In this document: positions 11,101 to 63,265 of the stretch, one piece after another
How the letters are laid out: every line of letters begins with the position of its first letter
How positions within the stretch are numbered: the stretch's first letter is position 1
Assembly: GCA_963575745.1 (NCBI GenBank)
Contig: CAUYUJ010017961.1
Span: 94,501 to 158,500 of the forward strand
DNA length: 64,000 nt
DNA from: Prorocentrum cordatum
Lineage: Eukaryota; Sar; Dinophyceae; Prorocentrales; Prorocentraceae
Direction: 5' to 3'
Position numbers and translations under genes: made by a program
The notes under the pieces: model-generated
Databases searched by the model: none
What the model saw: only the letters and a program-made list of their open reading frames with translations
Told to the model about the DNA's origin: nothing

Positions 11101-11674
11101 GCCGCAATTTGCTCCTCGGTAGATCAATGACGCTCTCAAGAAATTCGAGCAAATTCACGCTGAGAATGTGCGGCGCAGACTCTCCAAGGACGGCGGTGTC
11201 TACGATGCCGAAAACTCCGCCGAGGCATAAAGGAAAGAGCACAGCACTGATCACCTTGGCGGCGCCTCCTACACCGCGCGCTCCTCGAACGCGGGCACGG
11301 TGCTCTGGAGGAATCTCGACGAAACGGAGGCCGTGCACCGCGAGCGCCTCGGACTCGCGGTTGAGGGCCTCCACGCCCGCCAAGTCGGTGCCGGCGCCGG
11401 GGTCGATGAGACCCTGGGTGGAGGACGCGGCCAAAAACACCGAGTTGCTCGTGATCTCCTCCTCGACCTCGCGCCAGGCGGGCACGCTCCAGCCGCCCAT
11501 CGTGTTGGAGGCCACTCCCTCGAACATATACGCAGAGGCACTGCGCCGAGGAGGAGGAGGTCTCCTGCCGCCTACGTCCTTCTTGGCTGGCTCCTTCTTG
11601 GCTCCGCCGGCATTGGGGCACTCACGTCCCCAGTGCCCCTTCTCGTGACACAGCTTGCACGTGGTGACCTTCAT
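5153..11674 (-). CDS. Copia-like retrotransposon pol polyprotein (zinc knuckle, protease, methyltransferase-like, integrase), truncated before RT
   Basis: One open frame of 2173 codons from the ATG at 11674. A CCHC knuckle (C6-x2-C9-x4-H14-x4-C19) for nucleic-acid binding is followed by a retroviral-type aspartic protease with the active-site loop GLIDPGAG (D91). Residues about 285-950 are largely out of frame (see 8821-9756). Residues about 1065-1260 resemble a class I methyltransferase. The integrase has H1360, H1365, C1394 and C1397, then catalytic D1424, D1482 and E1517 with 34 residues between the last two. A Pro/Ser linker follows, and from about residue 1930 the frame is only GGA-derived poly-Ser/Leu. 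No reverse transcriptase or RNase H is present, although Copia order places them after integrase. This copy is therefore 3'-truncated and not autonomous. Gag lies immediately upstream in a different frame. Confidence 0.85.
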   Translation of the reverse strand: MKVTTCKLCHEKGHWGRECPNAGGAKKEPAKKDVGGRRPPPPRRSASAYMFEGVASNTMGGWSVPAWREVEEEITSNSVFLAASSTQGLIDPGAGTDLAGVEALNRESEALAVHGLRFVEIPPEHRARVRGARGVGGAAKVISAVLFPLCLGGVFGIVDTAVLGESAPHILSVNLLEFLESVIDLPRSKLRRSGALRTTVDMTRLGSGHRMVEIARPLEEPATAPASALKRYPFLTESSFVFGSGKPPKMLADGTIASYMISLNLPPYRSRSRLRSTRPGARPRRMSSRSEFGSRQGFYNFTCSLAPLVFALLILLVGSWAQRARLEQATGSGSFCRAKVHRAGDRGETGALDAIVGPWGLACILSAASFGSSLRRKTFRLSRAPSPRATIEVHRLSRDGHPLPPVEHGAGPAGPSSSQVPRRRCSDARRRQQRQRRRRGRGSGGGSSAGPTSLACPGGVGRGGAASDLGGAGPCGSSASADPGSAADDSSASAARRAKSSSSSADDVGSGSCPRRTGGHPQQRDRGPPGGRGTARRLRGYTLLRVRAQQPPRAECPSLCCAERQGQRWRGPLPQAAMMQASQPQAPQGLVGPTPQAQGPSRALPPQAPGDRGSPNPGAPPGTNYGDDEDQLRRRRGPGHDEPQSGSYSACGSTGSSGSTYWTSARTPSAKGKGHTREGSATIQAASLLQPLGAHRVRQSMRLRQEVPILRQEDRWHVREARRSAGWRCARRATRVRCSGSPSRSGLDGPGGAGPGAEPRLPGGDGGAPDGERPERLPQHPAVAPVPDPRGHAAARASSRDCGADRGVLAPSAPEPQPSRGRDAADLPRSGAYSPHPRGLGADGRRDRRDLESHECDVDLGLELGAGSGAAHPHGRRDRRSGDGPGAHGQQPGNEQPGGGFGLTGGCYVVGGRGRPDHDDHLRDRGSAASERAGYRGALGGGRRGREHRDLGAGAPPELLAPLCGSGRGTRAGAQGFAHAFSGCARTASDAGARESVRTCPLSSPTSSSKEGLAGLDWLDGDLTNDDHEVACGSRVRKALGEAAVKATGCLGEGSFVASSRSSRPRVVFMEVFSPPRMAPVVEKLGAPLGVRSSWGRKVGWDSSSKEDVEQLWRAIRSDRPQMIWLCSECRAFSAMHRINRDRMDPADWDRLMSEGLRDLILCMEIASYQVRHGRNFAFEHPLYASSWGTFVLKCVWGLPGVQRVRVDMCQFGLQVDARGLNKKPTGILSNHPRALRLLDGHLCMGGREHAVLEGGSVTARAGRHPPAFVRTVARAVSEHWSGASQSRQATWAELAEGDDVGAAEAGEVREEAGGPDASGESDDEPETRPSKGAKPDGPGREPPDPGPSEDEKWLIYKLHCNMGHPDNRKFVRELRAGGAKQRLIRWVRREFACSDCAESSRSGAHRKVALPRTFRFNHIVGVDLFYLEFQGTTYPYLNIVDHGSNLQVVSRVGSATAAAVWSEFLRSWVRPLGAPHLLISDGGSEFGARFAQGLEQWGVCHHVCDADSPWQNGRVERRGGWVKKRVRAELETGAALPASLQELDDLIFELVAHKNRFWHRGGFSPLQLVFGENPRLPHELLSDDHKALPGWQDVTSPSSEQDEARAEFARAHAIRAAARRMAMEATARDNISRASRARTPGNRGFTPGQWVFVWRHFTRMSSRADALGRRRAGWTGPGVVVLAEGGTVWVAVRARLWKCSAEQIRLASPEEEYGLQLAEDPRWQELLQAVQARRATAVDVQREGAPPDSAWDEAAQADLDAGPQVPGPGPAPRDDPEPESRPQALAVTGPLGLPRRPSRGDQSRAGSVVAQPGSERTGLPSISEGPPSEGDRSVNAPPSPARSQTEAERADTGGGSVEPRGSLSPSLPLPPGLSPPSSSSPPGPLPEDLRQVLDAPLPPSPPPDRDRHAPGVAKPRATQAHCNQHSNRGATPDQYLSFSSSSSSSSSSSSSSSVFPPSFLLLLLLLLLLLLLLPLLLLLLLLLLLLLLLLLLPPPPHPPPPPPSLIFLPHLPSSSPPPSLILILVLPSPLHLPPSPSSSSSSSSFPPSLLPHLPPQPSSLPPIPPPLPPSGSSFSSSSSSSSSSSSSLFFSPSLTLPPSLTLPPSLTLPPPSPSLPLPLSPLVVVVAAADAADGDAEHDDYDDEDEGDGEDGTPRRGEDGTRRRRGRRRRRR
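5300..5880. repeat. GGGAG/GGA polypurine array
   Basis: Purine-only tract with GAGGGAGGGTGAGCGAGG units at 5330-5400 and pure GGA at 5690-5800. It is read by the end of the Copia-like frame as poly-Ser/Leu/Pro. The element's coding sequence loses identity at about 5900, so the array replaces its reverse transcriptase end. Confidence 0.9.
7000..7600 (-). other. Integrase core (rve, DDE) of the Copia-like element
   Basis: Asp codons at 7403-7405 (GVDLFYLEF) and 7229-7231 (LISDGGSEF) and the Glu codon at 7124-7126 (NGRVERR). The HHCC zinc-binding segment is just upstream. The catalytic triad is intact. Confidence 0.9.
7900..8480 (-). other. Methyltransferase-like domain of the Copia-like polyprotein
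   Basis: Pol residues about 1065-1260. Seen in order: a motif-I-like VFMEVFSPPR (E1071), a GWDSSS segment where a second acidic/Asp motif would fall, LCSECRAFS (C1130, positions 8285-8287) in the place of the C5-methyltransferase PCQ loop, and GRNFAFEHP (1174-1182) in the place of the ENV motif. Domain order and spacing fit a class I SAM-dependent methyltransferase. The assignment is inference, because the key P before Cys is Glu and ENV is FEHP. Confidence 0.45.
8821..9756 (-). pseudogene. Out-of-frame middle segment of the Copia-like polyprotein
   Basis: In the frame shifted by the 22-bp duplication there is coherent protein sequence. It includes a zinc-binding-like CNHSELIGYGNQCGSGKKC followed by RFCGKK, then a helical, coiled-coil-like stretch (LNGYLNTLQWHLYQIPEGMQ to MGDVIDEISNHM). 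A TAG stop at 9082-9084 interrupts it, and it continues as AQLTHMVVEIGAAVMGLVHM to a stop at 8821. The main pol frame is open across the same bases only as Arg/Gly/Ala-rich noise. The coherent frame returns to the pol frame near 8700-8820, implying a second indel. This is a damaged part of one ancestral polyprotein, not a separate gene. Confidence 0.6.
9761..9804. repeat. Perfect 22-bp tandem duplication that shifts the pol frame
   Basis: TGGTCCTCGTCGTCGCCGTA plus GT occurs twice back to back (9761-9782 and 9783-9804). Since 22 is not a multiple of three, it moves the downstream coding sequence into another frame. On the minus strand both sides read coherently only if one copy is ignored. Confidence 0.9.
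11360..11674 (-). other. Zinc knuckle and aspartic protease region of pol
   Basis: CKLCHEKGHWGREC is a CX2CX4HX4C knuckle (11674-11618). The protease loop IDPGAG carries catalytic Asp at 11402-11404; Pro stands where Ser or Thr is usual (D-S/T-G-A). Confidence 0.75.
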
Positions 11675-11688
11675 CAGCTGTTCCTGCG

Positions 11689-13248
11689 TCAGGAAGCGTC
11701 TCCGCCCAGGTGGAGGCCTTCGTCCAGCTCCGCCTCCGCGCCCAGGTCGGTCTCGCCTCGTCCTGCCTCGGCCCTCCGGCCTGGGAGGAGGCAGTCCTCC
11801 TCCGCCTCGGCCCTTGGGCCCATGGAGCCGAAGTACTCTCGGTCACGCCGTGCAGCTCGCTTCAGATCTTTGTTCTGCTTCCAAGAGCGGTTGTTCGTCA
11901 ACTCCGCCATGACCAGCTCGATGTCGTCCTCGCCGACGTCCATGTCGTCGATCTCCGCCATCAGCGCCTCGACGTCCTCCTCATCCAGCTCGTCGCTGCC
12001 CTCGTCGCCCTCGTCGTAGTAGTCCTCGTCGGCCTCTTCCTCCTGGTGGCTGCCACCGTCGTGGAACCGACCTGCTGACCGACCGAGGTGAGCTGAGGAG
12101 GAGGGAGGAGACTGAAAACCAGGAAAGGCGTCAGAGCGTGCACCCGGACCGGAGTCCTCAGGGGATGCCGACGTCGCCAGCATGCTGCCTGGCCCGGCCA
12201 TGCCCGGCAGCAGCTTCTCGGTCCCGGCCGAAGAGTCGAGCTGGCGCAGCGCCCACTTCACGTTGTGGTACGTGAGGTCGCCGCGCGTCAGCGTCCGGAG
12301 GTTCTGGATGCCCTGAGGAGTCAGGTTCGCACCTTCCTCCAGGAACAGCCCCTTCAACTTGTCGGACATCCAGAGGTCGTGTCCCTCGGCCTCGGTGTAC
12401 TCCGCCTCACGGCGGCTCACGAACTGGGTCAGCGTCTCGTTCTTGGGGTCCCGAAATGCGTCGTACAGCGCCTTTCGCCCAGCTCGCCGAAGCTCATCTC
12501 CTTCCCGTTCGCCAATCATGAGGTCCATCCTCTTGAGAATGATGTCCAGCCACTTGCTCGATGTTAGATCATCGTCTGGTATGTCCTCGAACCTGGCCTG
12601 CATCGACCACTCGAACAGGCGCATGATTTTTTCTGATCTGCGCCACACTGCTACGTCCGTATTGTCATTCCATCTCTTGATCGAGCGCTTCCACTGCCGA
12701 TAGTGTGCCCAGCCCGGCCATGCGGGTGGATCCGTGTAGTCTCCGCGGCCACCAGGCCAGCTGCTCGATTCCCACCAGCCATTCCACTTCCGATCCTTCC
12801 AGTCGGAGGTGTCGTTCCAGTCCGAGGTGTCCTTCCAGCCCTCGGACTTGTCCTTCTGGTCCTTCCAGCCTTCTCGCCAGCCAGTCGTCGTCTCTCCTGC
12901 TGCGCTGTCTCTCGGCTGCGAGTCGGCTGGCCGTCCGTGTCCACTGGCCCACGGGTCGTCCTGGTCAACCCATGGGTCTCGCTGCTGCTGACCAAAATGG
13001 TCTCTGATGGTCTGCTTGACCATGCTCTGGACGCTCTTCAAGAGGGCGTCCGTGTCTATGCCCGCGCCTGCCCTCGGCGCCGCTGCAGGTGATGTCCCCG
13101 GCGCCCCTGCCGAAGATCCTGCAGCCGTCTGCCCCGCTGGTCGCGCCTCAGCGGCGCTGCTGCCCGCTGGGACAGCCTCGGCGCCTCTCGTCGCCATACC
13201 TGCACATGTGTCGTCATCCTCCGCGGGCATCCGCCGTGGATCCTCCAC
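11689..13248 (-). CDS. Gag-like protein of the Copia-like retrotransposon
   Basis: A 519-codon frame. The annotated first codon is GTG; the first ATGs are at 13230 (residue 7) and 13197 (residue 18), and one of these is the likely start. Residues about 1-110 are Ala/Pro/Gly-rich, with a Gly-Trp-Lys-Asp repeat region (GWKDTSDWNDTSDWKD). A folded-looking capsid-type core follows from WKRSIKRWNDNTDVAVWRRS through LKGLFLEEGANLTPQGIQNL. Next come a highly acidic segment (DELDEEDVEALMAEIDDMD) and a basic tail. From residue about 476 the frame looks shifted: the same bases read one base back give the RG-rich region that joins the pol zinc knuckle. It stops 14 bp before the pol ATG. It would package element RNA in virus-like particles. 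Assignment rests on position and architecture. Confidence 0.7.
   Translation of the reverse strand: MEDPRRMPAEDDDTCAGMATRGAEAVPAGSSAAEARPAGQTAAGSSAGAPGTSPAAAPRAGAGIDTDALLKSVQSMVKQTIRDHFGQQQRDPWVDQDDPWASGHGRPADSQPRDSAAGETTTGWREGWKDQKDKSEGWKDTSDWNDTSDWKDRKWNGWWESSSWPGGRGDYTDPPAWPGWAHYRQWKRSIKRWNDNTDVAVWRRSEKIMRLFEWSMQARFEDIPDDDLTSSKWLDIILKRMDLMIGEREGDELRRAGRKALYDAFRDPKNETLTQFVSRREAEYTEAEGHDLWMSDKLKGLFLEEGANLTPQGIQNLRTLTRGDLTYHNVKWALRQLDSSAGTEKLLPGMAGPGSMLATSASPEDSGPGARSDAFPGFQSPPSSSAHLGRSAGRFHDGGSHQEEEADEDYYDEGDEGSDELDEEDVEALMAEIDDMDVGEDDIELVMAELTNNRSWKQNKDLKRAARRDREYFGSMGPRAEAEEDCLLPGRRAEAGRGETDLGAEAELDEGLHLGGDAS
11815..11821 (-). promoter_or_regulatory. Candidate -1 frameshift heptamer GGGCCCA between gag and pol
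   Basis: In the gag frame the codons read ATG-GGC-CCA, giving the X_XXY_YYZ pattern G_GGC_CCA at Gag residues 476-478. A -1 slip here leads directly into the pol frame, which reads a GPKGRGGGG basic region, then RRRFLTQEQL and the zinc knuckle. A simple one-base indel would look the same. Confidence 0.35.
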
Positions 13249-51904: not shown

Positions 51905-52588
51905 CTACGATGCTCGGGCCCACCGGTCATCACCCAAAGGGACTCGGTCGACCCGGTCGCTGACCAGACCCTTTTTGGGACCCCGAAGGCACCTGCCCCA
52001 TCTCGGCCATGGCCGGCCAGCCCGAGCGCAGTGGCGGACTGCGCGCGACAGCGCAGCTAGATACCACCAGCTGTCCAGGTTCCCAAAGGTCCTGGTGGGC
52101 TGTTGCTTGTCCAGCGGCTTGCGGACCTCATGGCACAGCAGGCAATATCTTGAGAGGGCCCAGTCTCGGCCCTTGACAACATGCAGTCTCGTCTTCCACT
52201 CGAAGTAGCGATTGTATGCTGCGTCGTCTTTGTCCAGGCGCATGAGGTGTTTTGCGAGGAGCTCCAGAGAGCCAAAATCATCAACATGGATGAAAGAATC
52301 TTTTGGCGCGACTGCCTCATAATCCGCTCTTTTAAGCCCACCCCACACCACAGGTACCAATCCAGAGTCGTAAGCTCTGCTTAGCTTCTCGGTGATGTAG
52401 CCATCACACCGCGAATTCTCAAAAGAAGCATAAAACTTGAACTGGTTCACGAATTCGGATAAACACATCTCATCTTCTCGCCTGTAGCTCCCACATGCTG
52501 ACTTCTCCCCACAAGCTCCGATGATCTTGCTTCTGCCCCTTGGCAAATCCACCACTGGGCGGTAGGCGCCAAGTGGAGCGGCATGCGG
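51905..52588 (-). CDS. Alpha-1,3-fucosyltransferase (GT10), C-terminal domain fragment
   Basis: The frame is open from 52588 (after TGA 52589-52591) to the stop at 51905 and has no ATG before the domain, so it is a 3' exon or 5'-truncated fragment. In order: SKIIGACGEKSACG, FKFYASFENSRCDGYITEKL, GLVPVVWGG, APKDSFIHVDDFGSLELLAK and YNRYFEWK. This series is the conserved GDP-fucose-binding C-terminal half of family GT10 fucosyltransferases (FYxxFENSxCxDYxTEK). CLLCHEVRKPL near the C-terminus fits the terminal Cys pair of the family. The enzyme would transfer fucose from GDP-fucose to N-acetylglucosamine-containing glycans in the Golgi. The last 80 residues are Arg/Pro-rich and may be read-through beyond the real end. 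The N-terminal half, with the membrane anchor, is not seen nearby. Confidence 0.8.
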   Translation of the reverse strand, partial: PHAAPLGAYRPVVDLPRGRSKIIGACGEKSACGSYRREDEMCLSEFVNQFKFYASFENSRCDGYITEKLSRAYDSGLVPVVWGGLKRADYEAVAPKDSFIHVDDFGSLELLAKHLMRLDKDDAAYNRYFEWKTRLHVVKGRDWALSRYCLLCHEVRKPLDKQQPTRTFGNLDSWWYLAALSRAVRHCARAGRPWPRWGRCLRGPKKGLVSDRVDRVPLGDDRWARAS

Positions 52589-52818
52589 TCATTCAAAAAT
52601 CCTCGGTGAGTGCTCTGGGAAGCCCCGGGAAACGGACGCAGCGGAGGCAGAAAGCGAGCCAACCCAATCAGGCCCTCGAGAGGCGCGCGGAGGCATCCAA
52701 AAAAGGAAGGCCCAGGGACGAGAGGCCCACCGAGAAACCCCAAGAAGAATCCAAGAGGCCTCTGGTCCACAACCCAGGCACGGTGGCAGGATTGGCCGAC
52801 GGCCTCTGGATCCGCCGC

Positions 52819-52841
52819 CCCCTGTCGATTCATCGCAGGGG
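52819..52841. repeat. Near-palindrome, copy 1
   Basis: Arms CCCCTG and CAGGGG around CGAT-TC-ATCG, one extra T on the left. Same element at 54376-54398. Confidence 0.8.
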
Positions 52842-52903
52842 TGCCTGGCGTGCTACACCCTCTCGGTTATGGTTTTGGTTCTTTTCCAAAAGAACTCCCC
52901 CTA

Positions 52904-52915
52904 GGGCTTCGGCCC
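52904..52915 (+). other. UUCG tetraloop hairpin in the leader
   Basis: GGGCTTCGGCCC forms a 4-bp GC stem closed by a C(UUCG)G tetraloop in RNA. Also at 62359-62370 in copy 2. Confidence 0.5.
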
Positions 52916-52969
52916 GTCCTGCGCGGGCCCCCGCAAGACCCATAGGACGCCGAAGACATCGCCCAATTC

Positions 52970-54240
52970 CCAAATGTTCCTCCAAGACGGCTCAAGATGG
53001 CCTCCAAGATGGCCACGTTGGCCCAACATGGCCTCCAAGATAATCCAAGATGGCCCCCAATTCCGCTCAAGATGGTCCAAGACGGCCTCCAAGACGGCCC
53101 AGGAGAGTCCAAGACGGCCCAAGACGGCCCAAGAGGCCCCCCAGAGGCCTCCAAGACGGCCCAAGAGGCCTCCAAGAGGTCCTCCATGAGGGCCCGAAGA
53201 GGCCAACATCATTGATTGTCCTGAGGTTTTCGAAGGATTTTGGCATTCGCTTCTTCTCGGCTTTCCGACGACCCAAGACGGCCCAAGTGGCCCCCAAGAT
53301 CGGCGCCCAAGAGGCCTCCAAGATGGCCTCAGGACTGCCCAAAAGGCCCACAAGACGGCCCCAAGATAGCAAGGACGACCCACGAGGCCTCTAAGACGCC
53401 CAAGATGGTCTCTAAGACGGCCCTGGAGCACCCCAAGAGGGCCCCAAGTCGGCCCAGAAAGGCCCCCCAAACGTCATCCGACGGCGTCAGACGGGCCAGG
53501 AACCCACAAAGATGGCCGAAGTTGGCTCGAAGCTGGCCCAAGACGGCCCAAGGGGCCTCCAAGAGGGCCTCCAGGAAGGCCAGAAAAGGCCAAAAACATT
53601 GATTGTCCGTAGGTGTTTGAAGGATGTCGGCATTCGTTTCGGCCTTCCGACGGCCGATACGGCCCGAGACCCCCCAAAGATCGCCAAAAGATCGCCCAAG
53701 AGGCCTCCAAGATGGCCCCAGAACGGCCCAAGAGGCCCAAGACGGCCCACGAGGCTTTTAAGACGCCCAAGGTGGCCTCCAAGAAGGCCCTGGAGCATTC
53801 CAAGAGGGCCCCAAATCGGCTCAGAGAGGCCGCCCCAAACGGCTCCCGACGGCGTCGGACGGGCCAGGGGCCCACCAAGACGGCCGAAGATGGCACTAAG
53901 ATGGCCCAAGACGGCCCAAGAGGCCTCCAAGAGGGCCCCCAGAAAAGGCCCGAAAACACCAACATCATTGATTAGACATAAGATGTTGAAGGATCGTAGC
54001 ATGTGCATGTTGTTCGGCCTTCCGACGGCCCGAGACGGCCCACGCGCCCCCAAAGATCGCCCAAGAGGCCCAAGACGGCCCCAAGAGGCCCCCAAGACTG
54101 CCCAACAGGCTTCCGAGATGCTCAAAATGGCCTCCAAGACGGCCCAAGAGCCCTCCAAGACGTCCCCCAAGAAGGCCCGAAAGGGTCAAAGTGGCCTCCA
54201 GGCGACCAAGGTGACCTTCAAAATGCCCACGTGTTCCCCG
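52970..54240 (+). repeat. CCAAGACGGCC minisatellite with ~380-bp higher-order unit
   Basis: Degenerate 11-15-bp CCAAGACGGCC/CCAAGAGGCCTC units. A unique-looking block (CATCATTGATTGTCC, TTTGAAGGAT, GGCATTCG, TTTCCGACG) recurs near 53210, 53597 and 53965. Confidence 0.9.
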
Positions 54241-54375
54241 AAGGCTTTCCAAACCGACTCGGGGAACACATGGTCTGATTGCTTGGCAGGTATCGCCTCA
54301 ACGTTCGGCCACATAGGCGTTTCCAAAAAGGCAGGGGGCGGCGGTGATTCGCCGTAGGCGTCCTCGATCCGCCGC

Positions 54376-54398
54376 CCCCTGTCGATATATCGCAGGGG
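54376..54398. repeat. Near-palindrome, copy 2
   Basis: CCCCTG-T-CGATATATCG-CAGGGG; the central 10 bp are a perfect palindrome. Confidence 0.85.
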
Positions 54399-54486
54399 TG
54401 CCTGGCGTTGTGGATGCTTGTTTCTTCCCCGCTGTTGCCCCTCTGTTCTGCGTTGTCCACGCTCATCAGAGGTTTGTCCAATGAAC

Positions 54487-55005
54487 TTACCACCCCGCCT
54501 TTGCCTCTCGCCAGCGCCGCCAGCTCCCGCGACCGAGCTTCCCCCCGGGACTGAGGCAGTCAGTGCCCTCGGAAGCCGTTGGACCCAGGATCCCTCCACG
54601 GAATACCAGACCAGAACCGAAACGAAGGCCGCCAGCGGTCCGAAAGGAAAACGGGCGCTGGGCGAGGCAAGGCGCGACTGAGAGGGCATCAAAACTCCCA
54701 AGAGCGCTCTTCCACGACTCCCCCTTCTGGCCCCGCCGAAAGCTCTGAAAACCGCCAGGCCAAATCGTAGGCCAACGGGCTTCCCAATAACTCAAGCCTC
54801 TGTAGGCGGCATCGGGAACCTGCATATCACTTAAAACCTGCTGGCCTTCGGAAATATAAATGCGCGCAGTGGCCGCGTCTTGCCACCTGCCCCTCTCTAG
54901 GGTTGCGGGCATCTTCTTGGTACGTCTGAAAAAAGATGTGGCCCCGCCTCGCCTCTGACTATAAGGCTTGAGTCGAAACTGCTGACAGTTCACTGCCGCG
55001 CACAA
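54487..55005 (-). CDS. Tyrosine recombinase, C-terminal catalytic part
   Basis: A 172-codon frame. RLKPYSQRRGGATSFFR carries the second catalytic Arg (the x-x-x-R box, with Tyr where His is common). ERGRWQD has the Trp often used in place of His. DAATARIYISEG carries the nucleophilic Tyr at 54856-54858. Spacing and order fit the YR superfamily. The protein would integrate circular element DNA through a 3'-phosphotyrosine intermediate. All catalytic residues of this part are present. A Gly/Ser-rich tail of about 110 residues follows to the stop at 54487. Confidence 0.75.
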   Translation of the reverse strand: MCAAVNCQQFRLKPYSQRRGGATSFFRRTKKMPATLERGRWQDAATARIYISEGQQVLSDMQVPDAAYRGLSYWEARWPTIWPGGFQSFRRGQKGESWKSALGSFDALSVAPCLAQRPFSFRTAGGLRFGSGLVFRGGILGPTASEGTDCLSPGGKLGRGSWRRWREAKAGW

Positions 55006-55185
55006 ATGTTCGAATTGAGCTGTGAAAACCCCACGCTGGAAGACAAACTGAACTGATCAGATGGCAGATGACGCAAGAGGAACGCCACCAATCCCACCAC
55101 CGAAACATCACCGACCACAACGGACTCTTGGCGATTGAAGCGCAATCCGCTTTTTGTGATCGGCAACACAATGACAAGTCTGGCG

Positions 55186-55790
55186 TTAACCCTGCCAGCG
55201 GCGCAGCGTGAGCATCTCGGAGGTCCGCAGGAAGCCGGCGAGCCCGATCACGAGCACAGCGGCTACATCGTTGCGGCCCCAACCTCGCGCTGCGGCCGCC
55301 ACTACTGCGAGCATCACCTCCGGCGACGGCAGGACCCGCTGCGGCAGCTTGAGATTCTGCCAGGCCCGCAGCAGTCTCCACGAGGCTGGCAAGATGCGCT
55401 TCTCTCTAAAAAAATTGCACCGCGGACAGCGCGTTGCCAGTTAGACCCTGGGGATGGCCCTCGGTCCATAACCACTCGATCCACTCTGCCAACAGGAGGT
55501 CCAGTTGGTCTACTTGACCAGCGCCTCCTGACCAAGAGAGGCCGCGGCTGGGCACCCACTCAAAAAAATGCCTCACCGCATTCGGATAGACTTCAAGCGC
55601 GCGAGGCTGCGCCAAGTTATGTGAGAGACGCCCCACTGCAGCTCGAAGAAGGCGACTTGTGGCTTGATCATGGGCGTCTCTGGCTCTTCTCGCAACTCGC
55701 GAAGGCATGGCGCTAAGTGACTGCCTCCGCCGCTCCCCTCGACGGAACGTCCTCGGGGTTGCGGTCGGTCTCTGCGCAGCCATGCAATGG
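55186..55790 (-). pseudogene. Tyrosine recombinase, N-terminal SAM-like part and first catalytic Arg
   Basis: The frame 55783-55406 contains the N-terminal core-binding helices (LAQPRALEVYPNAVRHFFEW, LDLLLAEWIEWLWTEG, LTGNALSAVQFF). After a frame break, 55392-55186 reads PASWRLLRAWQNLKLP, VMLAVVAAAARGWGRND and VLVIGLAGFLRTSEMLTLRR, whose FLRTSE holds the first catalytic Arg. About 180 bp without a clear frame separate it from the C-terminal block. The domain binds element ends. Confidence 0.65.
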
Positions 55791-55794
55791 TCGA

Positions 55795-56070
55795 GCGAGA
55801 GCAGCCTTGGTAAAGGCCACCAATACGTCGCACTGCGATATGCAGCAGCTAGAAGACGAACGACCTCGCGCGATCACTCCGAGGCCAGCTTGCGAGCATC
55901 AAATGATAGAAACGGGCACGCAGGTGGTGAGACGATCGAAAACTCCATCTCAAGGCTCGCGACGTAGCCCGAACTGCGAGATCTGCAACGAGCGATGCAT
56001 GTTTCCAGTCCCAGGTAGCAGTGGTCTTCCAGGTCCATCGGGCAACGCGCACGGGGCGCCGCGGCCAGAG
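55795..56070 (-). pseudogene. RNase H-like C-terminal motifs of the DIRS-like element
   Basis: WTWKTTATWDWKHASLVADL and ALRWSFRSSHHLRARFYHLM sit where DIRS-type RNase H has a W...HIN-LEL...ALRW and HL-DS series. In the next frame CDVLVAFTKAALARP and NPEDVPSRG match the K-G-R-S and N-P-A-D-x-P-S-R end. Weak match, several substitutions at acidic positions. Confidence 0.4.
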
Positions 56071-56309
56071 ATCGGGCCTCGTGGTTTCGACTGTGTCGAG
56101 CCTGATGTCGCTCCCGCGCGCCCAAGCGCGACGGGCCAACTCCTCCGCGATCACGATGCTCGGGTCGCTGGCAGCGCTCTCATCTTCCAATTTGTGCTGG
56201 CGAACAATGACTCCGTCCTCAAGTTCAGATTTGTGCATGTTGACGCTGGAGTCGGCAAACGCGGCACCACATCCGACTTCGCGCACCAGCTCGAAGAAGG
56301 GCACCTGGG

Positions 56310-56481
56310 GCAGGTAGCCAGCCTTCACTGCCCAGTGCGACATGACCCAGGCAACCACGGCACACTGGAAGCTATGGCCCAGCAGGGCGCAGCGGCATGT
56401 TTCCAGATCTGCTCTCTCCAGCTTGCGTGCCATGGTCGCCCGAGCGGTGATAGTATGCCCTGGAACGAAATCTAACAAGAG

Positions 56482-56535
<54 letters not shown>

Positions 56536-57440
56536 ACTGTTCGGGGGCCGCCGAGTGCCGCTAGGCTCCTCGATGCAGCTGGCGCCCTGCAACTGGCATG
56601 GCGCGTAGCGGTAGTTGAAATCCTGCCACCTTCGGAGCTCCGCCTGAGAACAGCATTGGGGACAAGTGGGATACTCCCCAGGAGCTCGACGAGGTATGCA
56701 CCGCAAAAAGGCAGACAGCCAGAAATCGCAATCCGCAGTCAGCATCTCCATACAACTTCGAGCCACTTCTCAACCAGCGACTGACTGAGCCAGGACCGCC
56801 AGGAATAGCAACTACCTTGACCTTGTCAATCATACGTGCCTCCCGCTGCCAATCACTAAGAAGCTGCTCATCAATCCAATGCAGTTCATCGCGTTCACAA
56901 TGAGTGATAGCACTGGCACGAATGCGAAATGGAGCCACACCAATGCGCAGAGAAATAAACTCCCTGGACTCGGCACCCATTCAGGTAACGTTCTCAATCA
57001 AAGAAACCATTGGACAGAATTCCCCCATAACCTCTTCCAACAGAAAGTTGATTCGCCCAATCCCGGAGAAGAGCCTGGATCGTCGACCCCGCAGGCCTTC
57101 GCGCTCCACACTGACGCGGGATACCACTCACCAAGAGGAGCCACTTTACGTGCAGCACCCTCTCCCGCGCGGCGATAGCCTCCGCATCGCCAAAAGCCTG
57201 CGCATTCCCCTTGCCCAGCACGTCGGGCCAGGCATACTTGGTGACCCGCTTTGCATCGGGGCCAATCTCTGCGGACGCGAAGAGCGCGGGCGCGAGGCCG
57301 AGAAGGTCCAAGGCACGTCTCGCACCTCCGACGCCGTCGAAGAGGGACCACAGCACCACCTCATCGCGGAAAGCAGGTGGCGAAGCGACGGCTAGCCGCG
57401 CGCGCCGAGGCGACTCCATCAGCCCGTAGACGCGCAGCTC
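56310..57440 (-). pseudogene. Cytosine-5 DNA methyltransferase domain, inactivated
   Basis: Motif I reads LWSLFDGVGGARRALDLLGL (57322-57351) with a motif-II-like SAEIGPDAKRV after it. Motif IV reads LVSGIPRQCG: the catalytic Cys of P-C-Q is CGT (Arg, 57114-57116), one transition from TGT. Next to it the frame breaks, and SAKACGVDDPGS continues in another frame. Motif VI is SLIENVT (ENV codons 56987-56995), followed by TGA at 56981-56983. APFRIRASAITHCERDELHW fits the R-x-R-x-YW segment. LLGHSFQCAVVAWVMSHW (56331-56397) is motif X (G-N-S/x-F). A (CT)n run lies between 56490 and 56532. The ancestral enzyme would methylate cytosines in DNA using SAM. In this copy three independent lesions make it inactive. 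Confidence 0.75.
56490..56532. repeat. (CT)n microsatellite inside the methyltransferase region
   Basis: About 21 CT units; read on the minus strand as an RERERE run that expands the protein. Confidence 0.95.
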
Positions 57441-57490
57441 AACAAACTGCACCGCGCTGCACGCTGGCGTCGGACACGGCGACCAAACCA
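57441..57490 (-). pseudogene. RNase H-like first motif (SDAS) just upstream of the methyltransferase
   Basis: One minus frame reads VAVSDASVQRGAV. D-A-S plus Gly is the first strand and first catalytic Asp of DIRS/LTR RNase H domains. It lies about 30 codons before methyltransferase motif I. Confidence 0.4.
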
Positions 57491-57637
57491 ACCACTGATG
57501 GGCACTCTCAGGTCGCAGCGCAGCAGTGGGAGCAGCAACGTCGCACGCACAACTCCTCTCGCACCCTACACGGAAGAGGTGCTGCTCCTCGGATGCGGAC
57601 CAAGAAGCGCCAGGGCTCCGCGAAGCACATCATCGAC

Positions 57638-58465
57638 TCACGTCTGAAGAGCAAGCATCTCACCCCAGCGGCCGGCCAACATCTGCATCCACTTTTGCGC
57701 CACGGTGCCCCGCTTCAATGTGGCGAGGGTCAGCGAGACCAGGCGACGGATGAAGTCGGCTGGTGGGCTCATGGTACCACGCGCTCCATCGATGGCTTCA
57801 CCCGGGGACCGAGTCTGCGTTTCTCGAAGCACGGCCTTCTGCTCGCCCCGCGGCGCCCCAAAGATCTCGTAGCGGCCGCGGGCCAGTTCGGCCGCCTCAC
57901 CGACGCCCTTCTCCTTGAATCAGGCGGCCTGCCACCAGTCAGTGATCTCAAGAATGTCCAGGTTGCCAATGTGCACCCGCCACGCTCGCCACAGGAAGAA
58001 GGAATTGAAGCCCCCCTTCCATCTCTCAGTGGGGACATCGCCGCGGCACGCTCGCCCAGGCGCGCAGCGGCATAGGATCGGCGCCCCGCTCTAAGGCGAG
58101 ACCCCCAAGAAGCCCTGGCGACCTGCCGGGGCACTGCACATGCAGGTCAACCGCCTCTAACCTCGGCACGCCGTCGCAAATGCGGCACGGATTGCCCCAC
58201 TTGGAGGGCTTCAGACCATGACGTGCCGAGCCGCGGCCGATGTAGCTCCCGGGCCTCTCGTCGTCGCACGCAACTTCAACCTGGACCCGCGCAGGCACAG
58301 CGCCCTCAGCAACGATGCGGCGTCGGCGAGCGGGAGGAACCTGTGCGCCCTCACGAAGTTCCTCCTCCACTGCCAGCTGAGGATGTCGAGGGTGCCAGGA
58401 GCGAAGTAGTCGTCGGTACACATGTTGAATCACTCCCGTCGCTGAACAACACCCCATCGGCACCG
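57638..58465 (-). pseudogene. DIRS-type reverse transcriptase, second palm, thumb and connection
   Basis: PMGCCSATGVIQHVYRRLL (58465-58405) matches the P-M-G-W-x-S-A-x-G-x-x-Q motif of DIRS-type RTs. The catalytic Y-x-DD box was not found in any frame. Near 57780-57640, FIRRLVSLTLATLKRGTVAQ and KWMQMLAGRWGEM match the helix and K-x-x-x-L-x-GRW segment after the thumb. The sequence between is in mixed frames. Confidence 0.6.
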
Positions 58466-58502
58466 CAGCTGCTGCCAGATAAACCAGACCCGCCCCTGGA
58501 AG

Positions 58503-59495
58503 TCAAGCTGCAGCCCTCTTCGCCAGATTGGAGATGGCCATATACTTGAGCCAAGCGTCGCACAAGCTGCGCACGTAGAAGCAGCACTTCAAATCCCCGA
58601 CGCCCCAGAGCAGAACCTCGCCAGACCTCAAAATGATGCCCTTCCCCTCGTCGCTGCGGGGCAGCATCGGCGCGTCGCCCTCGATGGTGTTCTGAATGAA
58701 GGTTGACGGGATAATGTTCATCGCCAACCGCTGGGGGCCTGCGCCTTTCGCATGATACCCCTTCTTCACACCGAACATGCCCTCCATGATCTGGCGGCCC
58801 TGAACCTCTGCTATCTCGTGGCATTCTATCGGTTTGAGGATGCCTCTCGCTAGCGCGTCGCCTGCGATCCGCCCCCGCACCTTGTTGGAGGCCCGGACCT
58901 TAGGCGCGGGCGGCAGCTCCCCGAGCTCGGACGGGCCCATCAGAATCAACCCTCGGCCGCGTCGATGGCCTTCACCGCCGCGCAAACCCCGAGGGGAAGT
59001 AGAGCTTCCAGCAACCGCGACCTCCTCGCCATCGTAAGTAGCGGCTGCTGAGACGGGCTCCGACTCCCAGTCGATACCGGGGATCTGGCCAGCACACTGG
59101 GCACAACAGACCCTCACTTCACACAGCAGGTTGCTTCGCGCCTCACGCTGGGTGGCGCTCGGAGGGCCGACAGGTTCATCGATCCAGCTGCGGTTGCAGT
59201 GGAAGTTGAGACCCTTCACAATGGCGTGCAACCAGTTGAGCTCATCCTGGGAAGCCGCCGAGGAGCCCCGACAGTCCTCTGGGCGGTCTCCGCGACACAG
59301 CGGTAAAGCCAGCGCATGAAACACGATCGGGAATGGTAGAAGGCCCCTTTCGTTCTCTCCGGCCGTTCGATGGCGAGCGCGGCTTCTCATCAATATCCCA
59401 ATCAGAATCAGCACGAGTGCTGTCATTGGAAGTCTGCATAGGAGCCGGGCGTGACAATATAAAAACGGAATCACCGGAATTACGCGTGGAGACAT
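58503..59495 (-). CDS. DIRS-type reverse transcriptase, N-terminal and first palm part
   Basis: A 330-codon frame. The first part has ELNWLHAIVKGLNFHCNR and a Cys pair (VCCAQC). The RT proper starts at KVRASNKVRGRIAGDALARG (residue about 205). It continues GPQRLAMNIIPSTFIQNTIE, GKGIILRSGEVLLW, then VGDLKCCFYVRSLCDAW with the motif A Asp at 58593-58595. This D-L-K-C-x-F-Y pattern, replacing D-x-x-x-F, is typical of the DIRS-like family. It would copy element RNA. The RT continues in another frame at 58465. The part is intact for its length. Confidence 0.7.
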   Translation of the reverse strand: MSPRVIPVIPFLYCHARLLCRLPMTALVLILIGILMRSRARHRTAGENERGLLPFPIVFHALALPLCRGDRPEDCRGSSAASQDELNWLHAIVKGLNFHCNRSWIDEPVGPPSATQREARSNLLCEVRVCCAQCAGQIPGIDWESEPVSAAATYDGEEVAVAGSSTSPRGLRGGEGHRRGRGLILMGPSELGELPPAPKVRASNKVRGRIAGDALARGILKPIECHEIAEVQGRQIMEGMFGVKKGYHAKGAGPQRLAMNIIPSTFIQNTIEGDAPMLPRSDEGKGIILRSGEVLLWGVGDLKCCFYVRSLCDAWLKYMAISNLAKRAAA

Positions 59496-59682
59496 GGCGC
59501 GGCGAACTCATTTCATCGGACTTACGCAAAGGTTCTGGGTAGAGCGCATCGCGCAGCATCTGCAGCAAGACGCCCCCGAAGTTCCCCGCTGCGGAGCCAG
59601 CGACTAGCCGCAGCAGGTCAAGTAATGAATTGGACGAGCCATCCATTGCATCAATCACGACGTGAGATTCGTCAGCATGCAA
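59242..59682 (-). CDS. N-terminal extension of the DIRS-like pol ORF
   Basis: A 146-codon frame (DLLRLVAGSAAGNFGGVLLQ, LRDALYPEPLRKSDEMSSPR). It overlaps the RT frame and has a balanced composition, but no known domain. It could be the start of pol or the end of gag. Confidence 0.4.
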   Translation of the reverse strand: MHADESHVVIDAMDGSSNSLLDLLRLVAGSAAGNFGGVLLQMLRDALYPEPLRKSDEMSSPRHVSTRNSGDSVFILSRPAPMQTSNDSTRADSDWDIDEKPRSPSNGRRERKGPSTIPDRVSCAGFTAVSRRPPRGLSGLLGGFPG

Positions 59683-61185
59683 GCGATTAAAACTGGAGGC
59701 GGCCCTCGAGGATTCTGACGAGGTCGGCGTCGAAGGAGGCGATGCCGCGTCAAGGGCTCAAAAGGCACCTCGACTACCTCAGCGTCGTCCAGGAGCGAGC
59801 CCCCCCTCGGCCCCGCGACTTCGACTTGCCGCCTGCCTTGCCCGCCTGCGACTTGCCCGACCTCGCTCCGGCCTTGCCCTTCCCCGACTTCTGCTTCCCC
59901 CCCCACTTGGATGGCCCCCCGCTGCCATTCTGCCGCTGGATCGGCAAGTCCCCGGCAGGCTGGGGGGAGGGCGAGCGCCGCGCTGCCTGCTGCTCCACGT
60001 CGTCGGCGAAAAGAACGCGCCGAACGGGCGAAGCTGCTCGCGTGCCCTCTCTGGCTGGTGGGCGTAGGATCGGCCTCCTGTCGGGGCCAGGGCTGAGGGC
60101 TCCGCGAGCCACACCTGCTGGCGACCCAGGCGCGGAGGCTGCGGGCGGCGGCGCCGCGGCGGGGCTGCCGGCGCGCGCCGCTGGCGATGGGCCGCGAGGA
60201 ACCGCGGCGGAGGCAGTCCAGGCAGCTCTCTTCCGCTCTCTCCACCGAGCCTTCCCCGAGGCCTTCTCGCGCATCATCAAGGAATTTGTCTTGGAGTGGC
60301 CGATTGTCAACTGTGAGTTGCCGGATGCAGGGGGTGGCCTCTGAGAAGGTGGCGCCCTGGGCTGCGCGCCCCCTTCTCAGCCTGACCCCGTACCCGGCGC
60401 TGCCTCCTCCTCTCTTCGCCTTGGCCGCGCTCTCGGCCAGGCCGTGCGTCCACTTGTGCTTGATCGCCGCGTCGTGCACCTCCCCCTGACGTGCTAGTCC
60501 AACTCCCAGGTCGTCGCAGAGCTCCAACTGCTGTTCCACCTGCCAGTGACCGTCCTTGGCGGCCTGCTCGATCACCTTCAGCCTCTGAATCAGAAGGTCT
60601 CCGAGATGGTCCAGCTCTCCTCGAAGTAGGGCGTCTAAGCACTCGCCCACCGTCCTCACCTCGCGTCTGCTCCCCCCCCGTCTCGCTCTGCGGGTGGCGC
60701 CCGTGCCACACGCTGGTGATGCATTGCACCACGGTCGCTGCAAACTCGCCCAGGCTCTGATATGGGTCCGCCCCCCCGCGCCGCGCAAGATATCGTCTGA
60801 TCTGCTCCATCCCGCTCAACAGGAGAGCACCTGGTGCCTCACGAGCGAGATGCGCAGCACCCGAGCTGCTGTCTGAACTTTTGCTGCGCTTTTTGCAACG
60901 ATGGCTGCGGCGCTTCGACCTTGACAGTGTTGCTTCCGCACGGTCCGCCAACGCCTCGCCAACGCCCCTCTTCGGCTGCAGCCGTCGTCTCAGATCCGTC
61001 ACCTTCTTCCGCAGCTCCTGGGACGATGGCGGCCCTGCTGGCATCCCGAGGGCGGGGGCAGGCGGAGGCGTCCCAGCGGCCGCACCAGCTAGGCCACGGC
61101 CTGACACCGAGCCGCGCTGCTGCACCCGACGAAGGTGGCCTCCACGAAGCACCCCATGCCGTCTCCTGGCCATACGTTCTGCACC
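59655..61185 (-). pseudogene. Gag-like protein of the DIRS-like element, frameshifted
   Basis: Frame 1 (to about 60690) gives ELRKKVTDLRRRLQPKRGV, a Ser/Lys-rich stretch and GMEQIRRYLARRGGADPYQS, then LGEFAATVVQCITSVWHGRH. Frame 2 (60665-60390) continues REVRTVGECLDALLRGELDH, LGDLLIQRLKVIEQAAKDGH and DAAIKHKWTHG, a helical capsid-type core. Frame 3 (60310-59775) carries a Lys/Gly/Ser-rich basic tail (SKWGGKQKSGKGKAGARSGK) suitable for RNA binding. No zinc knuckle is present, as usual for DIRS gag. Assigned by position, composition and continuity across the frames. Confidence 0.55.
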
Positions 61186-62297
61186 TTGAAGGTCGCCCTG
61201 CCCGCAGCGCTCCCGAAGTTATCGAGCGTGACTCCCTCCAGCAGGCATCCGGAAGCCAGACCCACGCGCTGGTAGGCCATGGGGGCCGAGGGGCCGTGCA
61301 CCCAGGGCCCCGCTCCTCCAGGCGGCGCCGCCAGATCACAGGCCCCTCCAGCGAAGCCTGCAGCCGCCCCAACTGCTGGCACCCAGCCAACGAGCCCGCC
61401 GCCCCCGACACCAGGCGGAGCGCCCGCATCGCCCACCGGGCCTCCTGCGGCTTGACGCCACGCGCCAGATCCGCCGAAGCCTCCGACGCCCAGGGCGCCT
61501 GCGCCCAGCACATGCACTCCAGGTCCTGCTGCGCCAGGCCCGCCAGGCGGGCCGCCGACGGCGGCAGCGGCCCCGCCGCCCCACGCTGGGGGGATAAGCC
61601 CGCCACAAGGACCTGCCGCGGCGGCGGGGACACCTGGGGGGCCTGGCGGCCCCGCTCCAGCGGCCGCTGCTCCAGCAGCTCCGCCTCCTGCAACGCCTGC
61701 TGCGCCTGGCGCGCCGCCGTGTGGCCCCCAGGGCCCCCGATGGCGGGCAGCCCCGCGCCGCCAGGGACTCCCGCAGCCCCTCCGCCGCCAGCCGCGCCCG
61801 GCACACCACCAGCGGCTCCCGCGACGATGGCGCCAGCGCCTCCAGCACCTGGAGCGGCTGCGCCAGCGGCACCACGGGGGGCGGCGGCCGCGGCACCAGC
61901 TCCACGGCCACGACCTCCACGTCGGCCGCCGCGCCCTCCAGCAGCGGGAGGTGGGGGGCCCGCGGCAGCGGCGGCGGCGGCCGCGGCTCCGCGCCCTCGC
62001 CCCGCGGCCGCAGCCTTCGCCCCAGCCTTCGCACGCGCGGGCCGAGGCGGCGCTGGCACAGCTGCAGCGGCCCCCGCAGGCAGTGCAGCGAAGCCGCCCC
62101 TGCGCCAGCGGCAGCCGCCGCCATCCCCGCCTCATCGCCGCCTGGTCGCGCTGGCGGCCGCGCGGGAGGCGGGGCGGCCCGCGGGCGAGGGCCTCCCAAG
62201 GGGGGCCCAAAGGGCCCCGCACCCCTGCAAGCAAAAAGCTATGGGCGAGGCGGCGAGCGCAGCACTGAGAACCTGGGGCCAGCGGACTTCGAACCAA
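61089..62297 (-). CDS. Upstream ORF of the DIRS-like element
   Basis: A 402-codon frame. Most of it (62297-61340) is Arg/Gly/Ala-rich and looks like random GC-rich translation. The last 60 codons are different: PMAYQRVGLASGCLLEGVTL, DNFGSAAGRATFKVQNVWPG and GMGCFVEATFVGCSS form a compact beta-type sequence ending at 61089, just before the gag block. This part may be the N-terminal gag domain. The upstream part may be a GC-rich leader. Confidence 0.35.
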   Translation of the reverse strand: MVRSPLAPGSQCCARRLAHSFLLAGVRGPLGPPWEALARGPPRLPRGRQRDQAAMRRGWRRLPLAQGRLRCTACGGRCSCASAASARACEGWGEGCGRGARARSRGRRRRCRGPPTSRCWRARRPTWRSWPWSWCRGRRPPWCRWRSRSRCWRRWRHRRGSRWWCAGRGWRRRGCGSPWRRGAARHRGPWGPHGGAPGAAGVAGGGAAGAAAAGAGPPGPPGVPAAAAGPCGGLIPPAWGGGAAAAVGGPPGGPGAAGPGVHVLGAGALGVGGFGGSGAWRQAAGGPVGDAGAPPGVGGGGLVGWVPAVGAAAGFAGGACDLAAPPGGAGPWVHGPSAPMAYQRVGLASGCLLEGVTLDNFGSAAGRATFKVQNVWPGDGMGCFVEATFVGCSSAARCQAVA

Positions 62298-62320
62298 TCC
62301 ACTTAAAGAATGAGATTATT

Positions 62321-63265
62321 CGGCTTTGGTTTTGGTTCTTTCCACAAGAACTCCCCCTGGGCTTCGGCCCGTCCCGCCGGCCACCTGGAGAGAGTACCCG
62401 GCTTGCCCGGAGCCGGCTGCCAAGGGTTTTTCCTGCTCCAGTCGGCTCCACAACGGCCCAAGATGGCCTCCAAGACGCCTCCAAGACGGCCTCCGAGACG
62501 GCTCAGATGGCCCCAAGATGCCTCAAAGATGGCCCACGATGCCTCCAAGACGGCCTAAGATAGCCTCAAGATGACCAAAGACGGCCCAAGAGGCCCCCAA
62601 GAGCCCCCCAAGACGCCTCCAAGAGGTCTTCAAGGAGAGACCAAAGAGGCCAAAATCGTTGTTTTTGCTTTAGATGTTTGAAGGAGTTTGGCATTTGCTT
62701 TTTTTCGGACTTCCGAAGACCTCAAGACGGCCCAAAAGGCACCCAAAATCGCCCCCCAGATCACTCACGAGGCCTCCAAGATGGCCCCATGACGGCCCAA
62801 AAAGGCCCCTAAGATGCCCCCAAGAGGGCTCAAAGACGGCCTAAGAGACCTCCAAGACAGCCAAGCTGGCCTCCAAGACGGACCCGAAGGCCCCAAGATG
62901 CCTCCAACTCGGCCCGAGATGCACCCAAAACGGCCTGAGATGGCCTCCAGATGACGGCCCAAGAGGCCTCCAAGAGGCATCCAAGACGGCCCAAGAGGCC
63001 TCCAAGAGGTCCTCCAGGAGGGCCCGAAGAGGCCCAAATCATAGATGTTCCTAAGGTATTTGAAGGATGTTGGCATTTGCTTCTTTTCGGCATTCCAACG
63101 GCTCAAGACGGCCCAAGAGGCCCCCAAGATCCCCCAAGAGGCGGGGTCCTCAACGGGGTCCTCATCGGCCCAAGGTTTGGACGCATGGGCGCTTCCAAAA
63201 GGCAGGGAACGGCGTAGGCGTCTTCGATCCGCCGCCCCCCTTTGCTCGCTGGCTGCTTGGCGTGC
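62321..63265 (+). repeat. Composite repeat, copy 2
   Basis: Leader GCTTTGGTTTTGGTTCTTTC with CAAGAACTCCCCCTGGGC (62321-62390), CCAAGACGGCC array (62440-63160), and tail with GGGCGCTTCCAAAAGGCAGG and CGATCCGCCGCCCCC (63160-63265). Copy 1 is at 52803-54417. Confidence 0.85.

Follow-up and report, generated by a model that had tools for sequence, protein, structure and literature searches.

Remains of a dead tyrosine-recombinase retroelement in Prorocentrum cordatum, very probably DIRS/Ngaro-like, with a Dnmt3-class methyltransferase and DUF4326 in its Pol

We analysed a window of 64,000 nucleotides from the dinoflagellate Prorocentrum cordatum (contig CAUYUJ010017961.1, positions 94,501 to 158,500), in which the minus strand carries the broken remains of a reverse transcriptase (RT)-like region, a cytosine-5 (C5) DNA methyltransferase (MTase) and a tyrosine recombinase (YR). 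The locus is, very probably, a dead DIRS/Ngaro-like tyrosine-recombinase retrotransposon whose Pol had a Dnmt3-class MTase between RT and YR and, within the RT-like region, a DUF4326 domain. Judged by comparison with related proteins, it is the remnant of a real family of such retrotransposons, in which a C5 MTase separates RT from YR. That a DIRS-type element can carry a C5 MTase is not new, and the idea of a retrotransposon able to methylate cytosine in its own DNA has been published for Symbiodinium and Klebsormidium. The initial annotation of this DNA had held that known DIRS elements carry an adenine-type enzyme and not a C5 one, a view overtaken in 2018 by SymbioDIRS-Dnmt3, in which a Dnmt3 domain under purifying selection lies in the DIRS-type Pol of Symbiodinium (PMC5890265). 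As a dead copy the locus is ordinary, and its kind of element is already published; what deserves notice is that Pol contains DUF4326 and that both accessory domains seem to be nested.

Ten open reading frames (ORFs) of the window were scanned with Pfam; nine gave no match and the remaining one a chance match to DUF3915 (E 0.19). Rfam found nothing in the window at its gathering thresholds. Since the ORFs and fragments are nearly matchless, the identification of the domains depends on relatives. A first search with the RT piece returned P0001 as the sole match at E<=1 (57% identity, E 3.8e-80), and a profile search with the window read-through and P0001 returned eight proteins at E<=1 among the 8000 scored candidates sharing most words. 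All eight (P0001 to P0008) are labelled Prorocentrum cordatum; without P0007, the gene model of this very locus, seven relatives are left. They are automatic, predicted and mostly partial models, and the comparison within the genome was made through these predicted proteins. Block by block, the window region is 34-73% identical to the seven, and the E-values go as low as 0, which means that the series of domains in the window is not due to chance. Each of the six other models long enough to show it has the order RT-like region, DUF4326, MTase. Three models extend into the YR (P0002, P0004 and P0008); all of them keep the methyltransferase between RT and YR, the point on which the initial annotation had made its reading depend, and they join MTase and YR in a single predicted protein (these being automatic models, and the window copy too decayed to compare). 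Viral contigs were scanned for relatives and gave none.

The Pfam C5 methylase profile, PF00145, reached E <1e-3 in P0003, P0005 and P0004 (in the last 3e-4, just under the Pfam cut-off), was weak in P0006 (0.19) and was absent from P0002 and P0008. Alignment shows MTase sequence in all six other models that run so far, with motif I missing from P0002 and the middle from P0006, and it shares a model with the RT-like region in P0003, P0004 and P0005. The window remnant aligns to P0003 at 61% (57443-57117), 47% (57145-56744) and 62% identity (56727-55978), and to P0004 at 73% (57371-57117). A match to DNMT3B (E 2.6e-18) and a fold search of the P0003 and P0008 models, which likewise finds DNMT3, mark the enzyme of the family, by sequence, as a Dnmt3-class C5 MTase. 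The window fragment alone gave E 0.2 at best against PDB, and no protein at E<=1 among 4592 candidates limited to 0.55-1.75 times the query length. No N6-adenine (Dam-like) MTase was among the Pfam matches (E<=1) of the eight models. For P0003, P0004 and P0008, NCBIfam gave dcm below its cut-off and weak LeuO and SufB, while PADLOC gave MTase families and a weak Cas5. The profile check proposed with the initial annotation was borne out for C5 methylase in the relatives; RT and RNase H (ribonuclease H) had no profile match, and the ten window ORFs no relevant Pfam match. Motif IX of the window copy contains a (GA)n microsatellite of ~25 units inside Glu-Arg-Glu codons, which adds an ER repeat and leaves the frame unshifted.

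The motif names used for RT, RNase H, MTase and YR are those we take to apply here, and exact motif places were read by eye. DLKCCFY and PMGCCSATG, DIRS-type RT motifs according to the initial annotation, are present in that order by eye, with no profile match to an RT. The RT-like region of the relatives likewise has no RT match in Pfam or PDB. The motif order read by eye is DLKCCFY, PMGW, VYIDN and then a SLGEAIDG-like stretch (D/E-like), the motif C equivalent in the relatives being VYIDNLD or VYVDNLD and variants. Most RTs have a second Asp in motif C; all seven relatives (P0001-P0006 and P0008) have VYIDN or VYVDN, with Asn in its place.

DUF4326 (PF14216, E 8.7e-11 to 5.4e-17) was found in seven of the eight models, that is in every relative; Pfam found none in P0007, whose model cuts the domain. 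The window remnant aligns to residues 335-412 of P0001, where PF14216 has E 8.7e-11. In P0003, PHROGs placed a family of unknown function over this stretch (E 7.1e-22), together with three DNA methyltransferase families and one weak unknown. Where these stretches survive in a relative, the domain follows the motif A/B region and precedes VYIDN. DUF4326 has been described as a rhodanese-phosphatase clade in viruses, inferred to remove terminal phosphates from ADP-ribose or its products (PMC9503650). Its presence in a retroelement Pol is, as far as our searches show, seemingly unreported: no link between DUF4326 and retroelements was found among the titles of papers with DUF4326, supplements and subscription papers lying outside the search.

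RNase H-like motifs (VSDAS; DLEVRA; LMDSQ; NPADHPTR) were read by eye in P0008, and in the relatives keeping these parts the MTase lies between VSDAS and DLEVRA. No RNase H profile matched the relatives, and when RT, RNase H and YR were searched by sequence or profile against PDB, none of the matches was to any of these three enzymes. RT, RNase H and rhodanese folds were not among the matches listed for the P0003 and P0008 models, a search that is uninformative at AlphaFold mean pLDDT (predicted local distance difference test) values of 31.4 and 34.9, with block means of 70-80 only at P0008 971-990 and 1001-1010. Foldseek gave nothing at E<=0.001 with these low-pLDDT models. From their sequence motifs, we infer that the RT-like and RNase H-like regions represent an RT and an RNase H. 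It is possible, at a little under even chances in our judgement, that DUF4326 interrupts the RT, between its motifs B and C, and that the Dnmt3 MTase likewise interrupts the RNase H, separating the DAS strand from the Glu helix, so that two foreign enzymes are nested in the replication enzymes of Pol. Motif B with its following stretch is whole only in P0001 and P0003 (partly lost or altered in P0002, P0004, P0005, P0006 and P0008), and the second RNase H-like part is complete only in P0008. We put the nesting forward tentatively because so few models keep these stretches whole. If true, it would physically couple DNA synthesis, cDNA (complementary DNA) methylation and a nucleotide-signal function in one retroelement family, and a Pol with such apparent nesting in RT and RNase H would be unusually built.

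The identity of the YR is moderately supported: in a fold search of the low-pLDDT P0008 model, the YR core domain matched integron integrase and Cre. The presumed Tyr codon comes last in the order, as the initial annotation had it. PHROGs gave no family for the P0004 YR piece. Coordinates of all features are collected in Table 1.

Table 1. Features of the element remnant and its surroundings in the window
Feature	Position	Strand	Remark
RT-like region, C5 MTase and YR remnants, in this order	~59.25 down to 54.86 kb	minus	broken pieces of one Pol plus recombinase
RT-like, first part	58098..59252	minus	55% identity to P0001, 56% to P0003; one stop at 58505
RT motif A DLKCCFY	58595-58575	minus	by eye
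RT motif B PMGCCSATG	58460-58434	minus	by eye
DUF4326 remnant (PF14216), between RT motifs B and C	58028..58259	minus	split by frame change near 58093
RT-like, second part, and following stretch	57833..57976	minus	motif C equivalent VHIGNLD; tblastn to P0001, P0003
RNase H-like, first part: VSDASVQRGAVC	57370..57477	minus	by motif; 58% identity to P0003 564-660 in 57663-57370
C5 MTase remnant, Dnmt3-class	56344..57377	minus	family assigned through relatives
MTase motif I SLFDGVGG	57347-57324	minus	
MTase motif IV, destroyed	near 57145-57100	minus	
MTase motif VI ENV	56995-56987	minus	
MTase motif IX with (GA)n expansion	56482-56532	minus	
MTase motif X	56379-56344	minus	
RNase H-like, second part: DLxVRA, SQAGLGVI, NPxDxPSR	55737..55985	minus	across frame changes; collinear with P0008 from residue 869
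YR remnant	54856..55606	minus	67% identity to P0004 at 55606-55391
YR core-binding part	55606-55391	minus	
YR catalytic Arg region, FLRTSEMLTLRRW	55413-55192	minus	
YR second box	near 54970-54930	minus	
YR presumed Tyr codon	54858-54856	minus	by eye
Gag-like region, unverified	59837..62142	minus	exons of own model P0007
Short repeat X, upstream copy, candidate upstream end	63217..63265	minus	diverged outside common 14-bp core GATCCGCCGCCCCC
Upstream direct repeat, candidate A1	62320..63239	minus	holds 11/21/32-bp tandem array
Short repeat X/B, middle copy	54357..54408	minus	with imperfect palindrome
Downstream direct repeat, candidate A2	52863..54379	minus	same kind of tandem array
Short repeat X/B, outer copy, candidate downstream end	52790..52851	minus	
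GT10 fucosyltransferase C-terminal exon	51993-52480	minus	within P0007; recombinase remnant ends ~2.4 kb upstream

DLKCCFY, PMGCCSATG, SLFDGVGG, ENV, motif X and the presumed Tyr codon follow one another on the minus strand, so the single strand and order of the initial annotation hold, including those of MTase motifs I, VI and X. Motif IV, which it had also listed, is missing from the window copy: the Pro-Cys segment (GSPCxDL in relatives) is gone, and the window reads SGIPRQC in one frame and SGSSW*VVSRV in another. Nor is the reading unbroken. The blocks aligned to relatives, two short ones of them placed by eye, switch frame about ten times within 59.25-55.19 kb, although one or two of these switches may be natural ORF borders. 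Stop codons interrupt the frame at 58505, 57922, 57441 and 56983; a further stop, at 55408, lies close to a frame change. On this evidence the window copy is dead, and a working Pol cannot be expected of it. With motif IV lost and the frame broken, it is not expected to methylate anything, its own DNA included; self-methylation by such an element, as the initial annotation proposed, was an already published hypothesis. CpG depletion was tried as a sign of self-methylation and rejected, as it was not seen in the coding part (0.95 vs 0.89 for the window); the repeats had 0.70 and 0.60. The part called Gag-like (59.8-62.1 kb) is so by position only: its two ORFs have no Pfam match, and none of the seven relatives aligns there, only the locus's own model P0007.

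The flanks suggest an A-coding-B-A-B element of ~10.4 kb with candidate ends. The two long direct repeats align at 62320-63137 / 52863-53688 (72% over 866 columns) and at 63164-63239 / 54292-54379 (74% over 88), and their starts agree at 87% over 70 bp. The middle and outer copies of the short repeat (54346-54408 / 52790-52851) are 87% identical over 63 bp, and its core GATCCGCCGCCCCC recurs at 63.2, 54.36 and 52.8 kb. Allowing <=3 mismatches, a 20-base pattern over part of this repeat has two matches in the window, at 54357 and 63217, vs 0.01 expected. In element orientation the order is A1 - coding - B1 - A2 - B2, read from one copy, with the core at either end, which is what insertion by a YR would leave. 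A self-comparison of the window (E<=1e-5, at least 60 bp) found only direct repeats between the flanks and no inverted terminal repeats. Weighing against these limits, similar arrays run on to ~63.9 kb, with a small one near 33 kb; given arrays beyond the repeats, the element ends are only candidates. A 28-bp imperfect palindrome (54374-54401, 20/28 positions) overlaps the repeat core and is possibly a putative recombinase binding site.

Whether the Prorocentrum element took up Dnmt3 independently of SymbioDIRS-Dnmt3 concerns its origin and is compatible with a dead DIRS/Ngaro-like element. We regard separate uptake as a real possibility, if the less probable one. No Symbiodinium protein was among the eight matches of the profile search, two independent Dnmt3 acquisitions were inferred by de Mendoza et al. 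inside Symbiodinium alone, and the word DUF4326 is absent from the main text of that paper (PMC5890265). However, the enzyme class and its place in Pol are identical, and the search scored only the 8000 candidates described above.

A host multi-exon gene, domesticated or fused with a GT10 fucosyltransferase, is very unlikely. One automatic model, P0007, does span the element and the adjoining fucosyltransferase exon (PF00852, E 6.8e-39). Between 62142 and 51993, 14 window pieces match it, 10 of them at 90-100% identity, and its first 88 residues have no counterpart in the window. However, its joins skip frame changes and stops, MTase motif IV has been lost, and a fucosyltransferase match at E<=1 is absent from all seven other models. 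The fusion of the exon to a dead retroelement is probably a false annotation. Least probable of all, and rejected, is a chance nesting in the window copy only, with an unrelated MTase gene or element inserted beside a retroelement: the decay of this copy is too great to exclude it from the window alone, but the domain order is kept, at the level of protein models, in the six and three relatives given above.

In working relatives of this DIRS/Ngaro-like element, the RNA of the element would be copied into DNA by RT and RNase H, the MTase linked to Pol would add CpG methylation to this cDNA, and a circular copy would then be inserted by the YR through recombination at a short repeat. The methylation step is drawn by analogy with Symbiodinium enzymes, as two SymbioDIRS-Dnmt3 domains methylate CpG in yeast assays and cDNA self-methylation was proposed for them (PMC5890265); integration of a circle is likewise a presumed step. 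The literature searched held no report of an MTase-carrying DIRS element or retrotransposon in Prorocentrum, nor of a rhodanese in a dinoflagellate retrotransposon, so that Prorocentrales would be an added dinoflagellate order for MTase-carrying elements. This bears on whether such elements preceded the unusual dinoflagellate methylomes, a question left open by de Mendoza et al. (PMC5890265). In P. cordatum, a study of the nucleus found DNMTs more abundant in the nuclear fraction and cites the SymbioDIRS work (PMC10449503), and the main text of the genome paper (PMC10666404) has no word starting with "retrotranspos" or "methyltransferase".

Elsewhere in the window, a 2229-residue stop-to-stop ORF at 5156-11842 (minus strand) has a weak zinc-knuckle match (PF13696, E 0.0021, under the Pfam cut-off) and, by eye, a protease-like LIDPGAG and DDE-integrase-like motifs. 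It probably belongs to another, DDE-type retroelement.

Several known systems share parts of this design. The DUF4326 of phages and large DNA viruses is the same Pfam domain, often fused there to SLOG, Macro or NADAR (PMC9503650). Ngaro-type YR elements have repeats likewise ordered A-pol-B-A-B, whereas the present family adds MTase and DUF4326; the passages of PMC3783388 considered here give an MTase for DIRS only. DIRS elements with an N6-adenine MTase share the Gag-Pol-YR plan and an MTase as an accessory Pol domain (PMC3783388), but the enzyme here is of C5 type and no inverted terminal repeats surround the window copy. KnitGypsy-Dnmt3 also has Dnmt3 in a retrotransposon Pol, with repeats said to be as in DIRS, but is Gypsy-type in its domains and has a charophyte host (PMC5890265). 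SymbioDIRS-Dnmt3 has a Dnmt3-class MTase in Pol together with the RT, a YR in an ORF of its own, a dinoflagellate host and an A-coding-B-A-B arrangement that the flanks here resemble. Compared by its description (PMC5890265), the present element differs in its Prorocentrum host, the DUF4326 in its RT-like region, an MTase apparently inside RNase H, and in being a dead copy.

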